A stretch of 32,653 nt of DNA from Chryseobacterium gleum (lineage in GTDB: Bacteria > Bacteroidota > Bacteroidia > Flavobacteriales_F > PHOS-HE28): contig CAMCAZ010000040.1 of NCBI GenBank assembly GCA_945872795.1, forward strand, positions 1 through 32,653, in the 5' to 3' direction. Positions 26,299 through 29,998 of this stretch are shown here, piece by piece. Positions within the stretch are counted from its first letter, which is position 1, and every line of letters begins with the position of its first letter. The translations under genes were made by a program, and so were the position numbers. A model generated the notes under the pieces. The model ran no database searches, was not told where the DNA came from, and saw only the letters and a program-made list of their open reading frames with translations.

Positions 26299-27747
26299 GT
26301 GCGCACCCTGCTGCTCCGCATCCTCGGCCCCGCCCTCGGCGCGCTGGTCTACGTGCTGCTCCGGCACCTCGGTCCGCAGCCTGCGCTCATGGCCGGCATC
26401 GTGGCGTGGATGGCCGTGTGGTGGATCAGCGAGGCCGTGCCCTTGGCCGTGACCTCCCTGCTGCCCATGGTGCTGTTCCCGGTCTTCGGCATCGATACGG
26501 TGGGGGGCACCACGGCCAACTACGGCAAGGAGATCATCTACCTCTTCCTCGGTGGTTTCCTGCTGGCCCTGGCCATTGAGCGCAGCGGCCTGCACAAGCG
26601 TATGGCCCTGCACATCGTGGCGCGTGTGGGCGGCACCGGACCACGCCTCGTCGGGGGCATGCTCATCGCCTGCGCCTTGCTCAGCATGTGGATGAACAGC
26701 ACCAGTTGCGTGCTGGTGATGCTGCCCATCGCGCTGAGCCTGCTGGATGATGATGAGGCACCCGCGGCACAGCAACAGCTCACCGTGCCGCTGCTGCTGG
26801 CCGTGGCCTACGGCGCCACCATCGGGGGCATGGCCACACCCGTGGGGACCCCGCCGAACCTCGTGTTCATGGAAGTGTGGAAGACCAACTGGCCCGACCG
26901 ACCACCCATCGGCTTCGGTCAATGGATGGCCTTCGGTGTGCCCTTCATGCTCATCTTCCTCGCCATCGCTTGGCTGCTGCTCACCCGGCTGGTGTTCCGC
27001 GTTCCGCAGGAGCGACTGGTGGAGCCGGCCCGGGTGCGCGAACGCATCGCAGCGCTCGGTGGCACCACCCGGGACGAACGCCTGGCCGGATTGGTCTTCG
27101 CCCTCACCGCGCTGCTGTGGATCACTGGTGATGGCATCCGCTTCACGGAAACGATGGCGCTTTCCGGTTGGCGTGAATGGACCGGACTCGCTGCCGTGAG
27201 CGATGGGGCCGTCGCCATCGCCTCCGCCATCGCGCTCTTCCTCATACCGTCCACGGCACGGGAAGGGCCACGGTCCGCACGCCGTGCATTGATGACCTGG
27301 GACTTCGCGGAGAAGCATGTGCCCTGGGGCGTGCTGCTGCTCTTCGGCGGCGGTTTCGCGATCGCCAGCGGCATGGAGCGTTCGGGTCTGGCGAACAGCA
27401 TGGTCGCCGCCCTTTCGGGCCATGGCGATGCACATCCCGCGGCTCTTGTGGCGGCCGTGGGCAGCCTGGTGTGCCTGATGAGCGAGCTGGGCAGCAACAC
27501 CGCCACGGCCAGCCTCACGCTGCCCATCCTGGCGGAGAGCGCCAGCGTCTGGGGCATGGACCCCTTGTGGTTGCTCATTCCCGCCACGCTGGCCGCCACC
27601 CTGGGCTTCGCGCTGCCCGTGGCGAGCCCCATGCAGGTCATCGTCTTCGGCACCGGTCGCATCCCGGTGCGCCAGATGGTGCGTGCCGGGATCTGGATGG
27701 ACGTGATCGGCGTGCTGTTGCTGGTGCTGTTCTTCGGCCTGGGCTGA
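26299..27747 (+). CDS. SLC13/DASS-family sodium-coupled anion transporter
   Basis: A 482-residue protein with about 11-12 TM segments. Family landmarks: WWISEAVPLAVTSLLPMVLF near the N-terminus, the first substrate/Na loop MWMNSTSCVLVMLPIALSLL, GGMATPVGTPPNLVF in the middle and the second SNT loop SELGSNTATASLTLPIL. It likely imports di- or tricarboxylates (or sulfate) with Na+. The first loop reads NST where SNT is usual. The start is GTG at 26299; a TATCTTGC sequence at 26267 may be its promoter. A frameshifted partial copy of this gene's middle lies ~900 bp downstream (28120-28318). Confidence 0.92.
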   Translation: MRTLLLRILGPALGALVYVLLRHLGPQPALMAGIVAWMAVWWISEAVPLAVTSLLPMVLFPVFGIDTVGGTTANYGKEIIYLFLGGFLLALAIERSGLHKRMALHIVARVGGTGPRLVGGMLIACALLSMWMNSTSCVLVMLPIALSLLDDDEAPAAQQQLTVPLLLAVAYGATIGGMATPVGTPPNLVFMEVWKTNWPDRPPIGFGQWMAFGVPFMLIFLAIAWLLLTRLVFRVPQERLVEPARVRERIAALGGTTRDERLAGLVFALTALLWITGDGIRFTETMALSGWREWTGLAAVSDGAVAIASAIALFLIPSTAREGPRSARRALMTWDFAEKHVPWGVLLLFGGGFAIASGMERSGLANSMVAALSGHGDAHPAALVAAVGSLVCLMSELGSNTATASLTLPILAESASVWGMDPLWLLIPATLAATLGFALPVASPMQVIVFGTGRIPVRQMVRAGIWMDVIGVLLLVLFFGLG

Positions 27748-27768: not shown

Positions 27769-28094
27769 GCGTGGACAGCATGTCCTGCCTGCAACCGGTG
27801 CCGGATGTGCTGCTGGACAAAGGTGTGGATGTCTTCTAACAGGACTATGGCGACAGCAGCATCGACCTGGAGATGCGCTTCTGGATCACCTCCAAGAGCA
27901 ACCGCCATTTCCGCGATGTGCGGAGCAATGCGATCATGGCCATCAAGGCGACATTCGACAAGGAGGGCATCACCATTCCCTTCCCCATCCGCACACTGGA
28001 CTTCGGTGCCAATGGAGGTACGCGCTTGGATGAAGCATGGCCCGCCGATCGCCGGTCCGCAGACAGTGCGAAGGATCAAGGCGGCCCGAAGTAA
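27759..28094 (+). pseudogene. MscS-type channel C-terminal remnant
   Basis: One frame reads FCVDSMSCLQPVPDVLLDKG, then VDVF, a TAA stop at 27837-27839, and QDYGDSSIDLEMRFWITSKS on the other side. It continues VRSNAIMAIKATFDKEGITI, PFPIRTLDFGANGG and a short divergent tail, ending TAA at 28092-28094. This is the cytoplasmic C-terminal domain of a MscS-family mechanosensitive channel (GDSS.DLE.RFWI and GI.IPFP are typical). The TM helices and the beta domain are missing, so the gene cannot make a channel. An ATG-led ORF from 27873 remains but is only the tail fragment. Confidence 0.75.
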
Positions 28095-28119: not shown

Positions 28120-28318
28120 TCGTCCACGCGTGAGAGCGGTCCGGACTTGCTGCGGTGAGCGATGGGCTCATGGCCATCGTTGCCGCCCTCGCACTTTTCC
28201 TCTTACCGTCCACGGAACGGAAGGGCCACGGTCCGCACGCCGTGCCATGCCTCGATGCTGCGCGCTGCATGAACTTCCCAACTCACTGGACCCAGTGGGG
28301 GGCGAGGTCCATGCTGCT
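28120..28318 (+). pseudogene. Fragment of a second SLC13 gene
   Basis: Nucleotides ~28137-28250 align base for base with 27178-27290 of the intact SLC13 gene, with scattered differences; for example CCGTCCACGGAACGG-AAGGG here against CCGTCCACGGCACGGGAAGG there. The peptide VSDGLMAIVAALALFLLPST matches VSDGAVAIASAIALFLIPST of the intact protein. A 1-base deletion then shifts the frame, after which PRSARRA is recovered. A weaker match (NFPTHWTQWG against DFAEKHVPWG) follows. No start, ends or full TM set remain. Confidence 0.75.
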
Positions 28319-28393: not shown

Positions 28394-29545
28394 TCAAAGG
28401 TGATATGGACAGCCACCCCCGATCCGCTGCATGTCATCAGGCGCTACCGGAGTTTGATAGAAGAAATTCGTTCCGCGCGAGACGGTGCTGTCGAATGTGC
28501 GGTGGAATTGTGGGCTGAGCGCGCCTGATGTGGGCGGCACCAGCCAGGCCCAATCGCCGGTCACAATGCGTCCGGCTCGTTGCTCGGACAGGCAGAAGCG
28601 CTCGAAAGCCGTTGAAATGGCATGGTGGTCGCTCAGTTGCACCCCGTCCCTGTCGAAGCTGTACAACACAGCACGGTTCAACTCCACCACGGCGCGATCC
28701 CGCCAGAGTGTTCGTTCTTTCGTGGTATCCCAACCAAAGCACTGGGCCACGGCCGGAAGGGCGTTGTAGCGTTCTGTGTCCGCCAGGTCACGCGAGCCGA
28801 TCTCGGTGACCATGTAGTGACCATTGAAAGGCGCAAAGGGGAAAACGATGCCACCAACAACGAGAGCCATATCCGAGAGCAGTGGCACTGGATACCATTG
28901 CAGCTCGAGCTTTTCGATCGCAGCATTTTCCGGGTGCGCCAGACGTACCATGGGCGAAAGGGCGGGATCCTTGGCCAACACATCGAATGGGGGCTGAACG
29001 ACTCCATCCAGGCACAGAAGCCAAGGCAGGGGTACAAAGGGACCTTGTTCAACGGGCCGCCATCCTGCGTCGAGGCATTGCTGGGTAATGGTGATGTTGG
29101 CGGGATCACCGGTCACCCCACCATCTGCGTTCCGGAATCCCGCGAACTGCACAAGCTGTCGGTTTTCCAGGCGCACGGAAGCGATACCGCTGGGTGGCCG
29201 CGGTGGGAAGATGGTGATCGCGTTCCTTATGGTACCGCCGTTGTAAGCGAATGTCATGTGCGTCCGCAGCGCATCGAATACCGCTGGTGCTGAAACACTC
29301 CGGCGCGCGTCAAACACATGCAGTGTTCGCCACAAATGCCGGGCAATGCATCGGTTGCTGTTATACCAGGCCAGCCGGGCACCATGGGTCAGTTCCTGTG
29401 GTGTAAGCGTGTAGGTGCCGCTCCGGTCCACTTCCGTTCCGATGGCCTCCAGACGTTGTTTCAGCGCAGTAGGTGCCATGCCCATGGATGTCAGCAGCTC
29501 GGCGGCAGCATCCACTAATGAGTGTGCTACGGGATGACCTTGCAT
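28394..29545 (-). CDS. nos: Stand-alone nitric oxide synthase oxygenase
   Basis: This 383-residue protein is the size of bacterial NOS oxygenases (about 360), which make NO and citrulline from L-arginine on a heme-thiolate. The heme ligand should be Cys66 in AWYNSNRCIARHLW (canonical AWRN..RCIGR..W). Further family blocks: LENRQLVQFAGFRNADGGVT, WYPVPLLSDMALVVGGIVF and APFNGHYMVTEIGSRDLAD, with the substrate Glu248. Then come ERYNALPAVAQ, DHHAISTAFERF, and the pterin-side GDWAWLVPPTSGALSPQFH (Trp332, Phe347). Departures from the usual signature are Arg to Tyr61, Gly to Ala68 and Trp to His243. No reductase domain is fused or adjacent. It follows the RidA-like gene by 42 nt on the same strand. 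Confidence 0.92.
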   Translation of the reverse strand: MQGHPVAHSLVDAAAELLTSMGMAPTALKQRLEAIGTEVDRSGTYTLTPQELTHGARLAWYNSNRCIARHLWRTLHVFDARRSVSAPAVFDALRTHMTFAYNGGTIRNAITIFPPRPPSGIASVRLENRQLVQFAGFRNADGGVTGDPANITITQQCLDAGWRPVEQGPFVPLPWLLCLDGVVQPPFDVLAKDPALSPMVRLAHPENAAIEKLELQWYPVPLLSDMALVVGGIVFPFAPFNGHYMVTEIGSRDLADTERYNALPAVAQCFGWDTTKERTLWRDRAVVELNRAVLYSFDRDGVQLSDHHAISTAFERFCLSEQRAGRIVTGDWAWLVPPTSGALSPQFHRTFDSTVSRGTNFFYQTPVAPDDMQRIGGGCPYHL

Positions 29546-29587: not shown

Positions 29588-29998
29588 TCACACCGTTGCG
29601 ATCACCTTCAGCTCGATGGCGATCGGTGTGGGCAAGCAGTTGATCTCGAGCGTGGTGCGACACGGTGGGTCGTTCTCGAAGTACTCCTTCCACAGCCGGT
29701 TGTAGGTCGGGAAGTCGTCCTTCATGTTGGTGAGGTAGACCGTCACGTCCAGGATCTTCTCCCAGCTGCTGCCGCTGTCCTCCAGGATCCACTTCACGTT
29801 CTGGAACACGCTGCGCACCTGGGTCTCGATGTCGTAGCTCATGATTCGGCCCTCGGCATCCAGTTCCACGCCGGGGATCTTCTTCGTGCCCCGTTCGCGC
29901 GGCCCCACGCCGCTGAGGAACAAGAGCTCGCCCACGCGGCGGGCATGCGGGTAGTGGCCTACGGGCTCGGGGGCCTTGTTGCTGGAGATGCTGGACAT
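29588..29998 (-). CDS. RidA-family protein, 2-aminomuconate deaminase-like
   Basis: A 136-residue YjgF/YER057c/UK114-family protein, a trimeric cytoplasmic enamine/imine deaminase. The region GPRERGTKKIPGVELDAEGR plus VTVYLTNMKDDFPTYNRLW and TPIAIELKVIA resembles 2-aminomuconate deaminase of the kynurenine/aminophenol pathway more than generic RidA. The substrate-binding Arg lies in PCRTTLEINCLPTP. No other kynurenine-pathway gene is in the window, so the substrate stays open. The start is the ATG at 29998; the frame is open to 30217 but that part lacks homology and overlaps the divergent adaptor gene. It lies upstream of NOS, probably in one transcript. Confidence 0.88.
   Translation of the reverse strand: MSSISSNKAPEPVGHYPHARRVGELLFLSGVGPRERGTKKIPGVELDAEGRIMSYDIETQVRSVFQNVKWILEDSGSSWEKILDVTVYLTNMKDDFPTYNRLWKEYFENDPPCRTTLEINCLPTPIAIELKVIATV

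Follow-up and report, generated by a model that had tools for sequence, protein, structure and literature searches.

Nitric oxide synthases (NOS) have some of the most strongly conserved active sites on record, and the bacterial enzymes that currently serve as models, from Bacillus and Staphylococcus, are closely related to each other. The DNA analysed here, a stretch of 32,653 nucleotides (the window), carries a gene that a first-pass annotation had described as a divergent stand-alone NOS, differing from the family at three nearly invariant positions (Tyr61, Ala68 and His243). The question raised by this locus is whether such a protein is a working NOS, an enzyme shifted to another substrate, or an acquired gene in decay. 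A natural NOS with alanine in place of the thiolate-loop glycine and a rewired substrate end would offer a direct test of the roles of those residues.

Materials and methods

Residue rarity was assessed against up to 138 other aligned NOS, of which 137 or 138 have a residue at a given position. The sequences derived from Bacillota, Bacteroidota, Verrucomicrobiota, Planctomycetota, Actinomycetota, Cyanobacteriota, Deinococcota, alphaproteobacteria and haloarchaea, together with rat nNOS. Equivalent nNOS positions were obtained by alignment to the rat protein, and their letters were confirmed on PDB chain 1k2r. The structural model was computed with AlphaFold2 from an input of 31 related sequences, and matches to PF02898 (NO_synthase) were read against the curated cut-off of 22.7 bits.

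Identity and fold of the protein

The annotated open reading frame is present, lies on the minus strand, and runs without frameshift from an ATG start through 383 codons to a single stop (Table 1). PF02898 is the only Pfam match of its product, covering residues 17-366 (profile positions 16-359 of 362; 392.5 bits, E = 2e-117), and the protein thus consists of the oxygenase domain alone, as in the bacterial type I layout. All the significant matches listed by phmmer against the PDB were NOS, with bacterial NOS on top; NCBIfam and PADLOC gave no matches. The AlphaFold2 model (mean pLDDT 90.7) superposes on Bacillus subtilis NOS (4lwa) with a Z-score of 45 and 1.6 Å over 358 residues, and its structural matches include arginine- or pterin-bound entries.

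Table 1. Features of the NOS locus, with coordinates on the window.
Feature	Coordinates	Strand	Basis
MscS-type channel remnant, C-terminal 84 codons; full length in congeners	27840..28094	+	Congener comparison
Duplicated 107-bp DASS transporter gene fragment (source 27179-27287), adjoining NOS	28138..28245	+	Sequence comparison
NOS oxygenase gene, 383 aa, stand-alone	28394..29545	-	ORF; PF02898 392.5 bits; AlphaFold2 model
C-terminal Cys-Pro tail GCPYHL, residues 378-383	28397..28414	-	CP[FY] tail in all clade members listed
Asp253 (bacterial NOS Asn; nNOS Asp597, eNOS Asn368)	28787..28789	-	Asp in 2 of 138 others: rat nNOS, L168
Glu248, predicted guanidinium-binding Glu (nNOS Glu592)	28802..28804	-	Invariant in 138
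His243 (usually Trp; nNOS Trp587)	28817..28819	-	His also in 7 clade members
Arg129, Gln130, Gln133 segment, predicted substrate alpha-carboxylate end (typical bacterial His/Gln/Arg; nNOS Ser477/Gln478/Arg481)	29147..29161	-	Alignment; PMC10343299
His70, CIGRH clade signature	29336..29338	-	His in 37 of 37 other members, 0 outside the clade
Ala68 (relatives Gly; nNOS Gly417), heme Cys +2	29342..29344	-	Unique among 137
Cys66, predicted heme thiolate ligand (nNOS Cys415)	29348..29350	-	Invariant in 137 relatives; rat nNOS mapping
Tyr61 (relatives Arg/Lys; nNOS Arg410), adjoining heme-stacking Trp60	29363..29365	-	Unique among 137
RidA-family gene directly upstream of NOS, 42-bp gap	29588..29998	-	PF01042; conserved in congeners

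All the motifs quoted in the first-pass annotation were found (AWYNSNRCIAR, GHYMVTEIG, DHH, DWAWLVPP and FH), and its residue numbers (Tyr61, Cys66, Ala68, His243, Glu248) are right. By alignment the protein keeps the hallmarks of the family, namely the heme Cys66, the stacking Trp60, the guanidinium-binding Glu248 and the pterin-site residues Arg252, Trp332, Trp334 and Phe347, as well as Tyr218, Pro221, Tyr244 and Arg259. Its membership of the NOS family is beyond doubt, and the description as a divergent stand-alone NOS holds. From its sequence, the protein is predicted to bind heme through a thiolate and to form NO and citrulline from L-arginine.

With the type I NOS of B. subtilis and Staphylococcus aureus the protein shares a single oxygenase domain lacking both zinc hook and reductase domain, and with the B. 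subtilis enzyme also the fold, 42% identity, and the heme, Glu and pterin residues. It differs from this type by Tyr61, Ala68, Arg129, Gln133, Phe134, Leu223, His243, Val246, Asp253 and a Cys-Pro tail. The mammalian nNOS (NOS1) oxygenase resembles it in the core, at 38% identity, and in the Asp253/Asp597 pair, but has a reductase domain, a zinc site, and Arg410, Gly417, Arg481 and Trp587. The window NOS is genuine and divergent, apparently gained horizontally, and belongs to a known enzyme family; it does not represent a new type of system.

Phylogenetic position

The tree places the window NOS inside a clade of Flavobacteriales and Puniceicoccaceae sequences with support of 100/100. The Flavobacteriales members come mostly from metagenome-assembled genomes, many with genomes of 1.6-2.5 Mb; the closest proteins are those of this order (L014 from UBA1531, L019, L020, L022-25) and of Puniceicoccaceae (L015-18, L021), the nearest relatives found having 52-55% identity. 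Within the clade the window NOS forms an isolated long branch (1.14-1.36 changes per column) whose exact place is weakly resolved. All the features seen agree with a Bacteroidota host, the phylum named in the first-pass annotation.

Besides the His70 of the CIGRH signature, the clade is marked by a glycine preceding the DHH motif (Gly305, giving GDHH), replaced by Ser305 in the window NOS, and by a Cys-Pro tail at the C-terminus, joined through a linker whose length varies; in the window NOS model this tail is disordered (pLDDT <50, residues 375-383). Phe137 and Pro236 are also shared, as is, in many members, Leu223. The relatives keep Arg/Lys61, Gly68, Arg133, Gly246, Asn253 and Gly305. The earlier proposal of a distinct NOS clade is borne out as regards the clade itself, which is robust; the features that mark it, however, are His70, Gly305 and the tail, not the three residues first singled out.

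No dedicated redox partner or operon common to the clade loci was found, and a missing neighbouring partner gene is usual for type I bacterial NOS (PMC9500659). The literature searched yielded no work on NOS clades in Flavobacteriales or Verrucomicrobiota. That so many genomes of Flavobacteriales and Puniceicoccaceae carry a CIGRH-clade NOS hints at NO synthesis being commoner among such bacteria than the Gram-positive picture would imply. Cys-Pro tails (CPFH, CPYH, CPFG, CPFS) also occur in many other NOS of Bacteroidota, Planctomycetota and Exiguobacterium; they resemble the heme regulatory (Cys-Pro) motif, and no report of such a tail was found in the literature searched.

Genomic context and probable acquisition

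The NOS gene is single-copy in its genome and absent from the 44 other genomes sampled from the order, which belong to a single genus. In congeners the gene order is DASS transporter, MscS channel, RidA and HlyD-type adaptor. At L127 and L128 the site is empty, with 71 and 409 bp between the conserved MscS and RidA segments, whereas in the window their spacing is ~1.58 kb, the gap being filled by NOS. GC3 of the gene is 0.64, against 0.77-0.92 in the intact neighbouring genes (RidA, 0.92), and relatives in the clade have values between 0.35 and 0.71. Since the gene is absent in congeners, the site is empty there and GC3 is low for the host, horizontal gain looks likely, and the gene appears to have been acquired recently from a lower-GC source. 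The MscS remnant and the duplicated DASS piece mark local rearrangement.

RidA, which is kept in congeners, has long occupied this site, and nothing about its family suggests a tie to NOS; it may be co-transcribed with the NOS gene. No reductase gene adjoins NOS, whose neighbours are RidA and the MscS remnant. Among plasmids, phages and viral contigs only distant NOS were met (at most 47-48% identity), and no mobile carrier was found. Rfam matched only a tRNA-Met in the window, away from NOS, and promoter and terminator scans gave results at chance level.

A rearranged site, with a truncated channel gene and a duplicated transporter fragment, is also what might surround an acquired NOS under relaxed constraint or in decay, its activity lost and its odd residues the product of drift, and both the weak codon-position GC contrast of the gene and the alteration of two otherwise invariant positions would fit such a history. 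Random decay is nevertheless disfavoured, because the window NOS departs from only two of the 60 columns with 95% conservation (the average is 0.9), no stop interrupts the 383 codons, and the catalytic and pterin residues are all retained along with the clade marks His70 and the Cys-Pro tail. The end branch is long, yet path lengths within the clade reach similar values, and a lower-GC donor accounts for the GC3. We regard decay as distinctly unlikely.

Substitutions around the heme thiolate

The claim that the three substituted positions are nearly invariant stands for two of them. Of 137 NOS, 136 have Arg or Lys at position 61, the lone Leu belonging to a degraded fragment (L174), and all 137 have Gly at position 68, although the relatives taken from the contig search are the best 80 of at least 563, and rarer Tyr61 or Ala68 may occur elsewhere. 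Ala68 departs from the RCxGR consensus, whose Gly, two residues past the heme Cys, is near-invariant without being a formal family criterion. Position 243 is far more permissive (Trp 110, Tyr 11, Phe 9, His 7 and Ile 1 among 138), and His243 is unremarkable because it is common to a sister subclade of seven sequences (L023-25, L157, L159, L162, L164). The three substitutions are accordingly not common to one clade: Tyr61 and Ala68 are private to the window NOS, and the alignment of 138 NOS rules out the trio as a clade-defining set.

A single sequencing error is an unlikely source of Tyr61, since its codon, TAT, is at least two base changes from every Arg codon. Over residues 61-70 the pLDDT is 85, compared with 92 for the equivalent loop of L014, a faint hint from the models that the proximal loop may be strained or less ordinary. 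A broken NOS fragment from the same class, L174 and L175 (G974), has by contrast lost many conserved residues.

These substitutions, together with those in the pocket described below, could also be neutral, the protein being an ordinary NOS; this would be a sub-case of the explanation favoured here, without retuning. The tolerance of W/Y/F/H at position 243 and of G/E/S/L/V at position 246 among relatives speaks for such leniency, as do the engineered B. subtilis H128S and I218V, eNOS N368D and nNOS D597N proteins, which according to structure entries fold and bind ligands. Neutrality is harder to reconcile with the constancy of Arg/Lys61 and Gly68 across the other NOS, one degraded fragment aside. 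We consider full neutrality possible but somewhat doubtful.

Substitutions at the substrate end

A second cluster of substitutions, missing from the first-pass annotation, lies at the substrate alpha-carboxylate end and comprises His129Arg, Arg133Gln, Tyr134Phe and Asn253Asp; Val246 was likewise unlisted. Asn253 is found in 136 of 138 other NOS and Arg133 in 127 of 138, and the clade mates lack Asn253Asp, Arg133Gln and His129Arg. In nNOS, the residue equivalent to Arg129 (Ser477) immediately precedes Gln478, the counterpart of Gln130, and Gln133 corresponds to Arg481; a docking study treats all three as substrate-site residues, and the bond to the substrate alpha-carboxylate comes from Asp597, or in eNOS from Asn368 (PMC10343299). 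According to a review, bacterial NOS have Asn at the substrate-contacting site, His128 in place of Ser, and Ile218, the NO-release gate, in place of Val (PMC9500659). The window NOS departs from this typical set in having Asp253, Arg129 and, at the gate, Leu223, which is present in 27 of 37 clade members. As a sequence argument for an altered substrate end, the Arg129/Gln133/Phe134/Asp253 cluster seems better than the three residues noted at first.

Loss of Arg133 and Trp243 with gain of Arg129 and Asp253 could have reshaped the amino-acid end while Glu248 still grips the guanidinium, so that a NOS-fold enzyme would have shifted to another guanidino substrate, for instance one whose alpha-carboxylate is modified or missing. 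In its favour are the four co-located changes, none of them in clade mates, and L168 (1480-2562), a NOS from the same class but unrelated to this one, in which Ser133, Phe134 and Asp253 arose independently, partly converging on the window NOS; changes at 133, 134 and 253 may go together, two cases being thin evidence. The pocket end also diversifies within the phylum, Gln130 and Arg133 being replaced by Thr and Met in L007, L009 and L184-187. Against a shift, Gln130, Tyr218, Tyr244 and Glu248 are retained, no gene cluster at the locus hints at another substrate, and Asp at the position of Asp253 is normal in nNOS, where it works with L-Arg and makes the same arginine contact as eNOS Asn368 (PMC10343299). 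A substrate shift is, in our judgement, unlikely. Rather improbable, too, is the bolder proposal that this is the first sampled lineage in which the thiolate surroundings (Tyr61, Ala68) and the alpha-end (Arg129, Gln133, Phe134, Asp253) have both changed, and that the guanidino compound it oxidises is not free L-arginine, or the product it releases is not NO.

Proposed activity

The best explanation, which we hold to be fairly likely, is a divergent but working type I bacterial NOS, horizontally gained and kept intact, with its heme-thiolate surroundings and substrate pocket retuned. Against it stand the otherwise invariant Gly68 beside the thiolate, the near-invariance of Arg133 and, weakly, the lower pLDDT of the proximal loop. 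The gene would have been gained between the MscS-type channel gene and the RidA gene. Its product would bind heme via Cys66 and a pterin, either tetrahydrofolate or tetrahydrobiopterin, at the conserved Arg252/Trp332/Trp334/Phe347 site, Glu248 would hold the guanidino substrate above the heme, and electrons would be supplied by general cellular flavoproteins, allowing L-arginine to be converted via N-hydroxyarginine to citrulline and NO. Tyr61 and Ala68 probably alter packing and hydrogen bonding near the heme thiolate, and hence heme potential and NO-release kinetics, while Arg129, Gln133 and Asp253 would rearrange the contacts to the substrate alpha-carboxylate.

Other NOS lineages

A separate lineage from the same phylum (L007, L009, L184-L187, L195) carries Thr130, Met133 and Asp247, the equivalents of nNOS Gln478, Arg481 and Thr591 all being replaced, and DHH is altered in some members; judged by these residues, a changed substrate is more plausible here than for the window NOS. 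In L006, L172 and L173, NOS lies within reading frames of 1540-1553 aa that have a globin-like N-terminal part and resemble the type II NOS of Synechococcus and Spirosoma.
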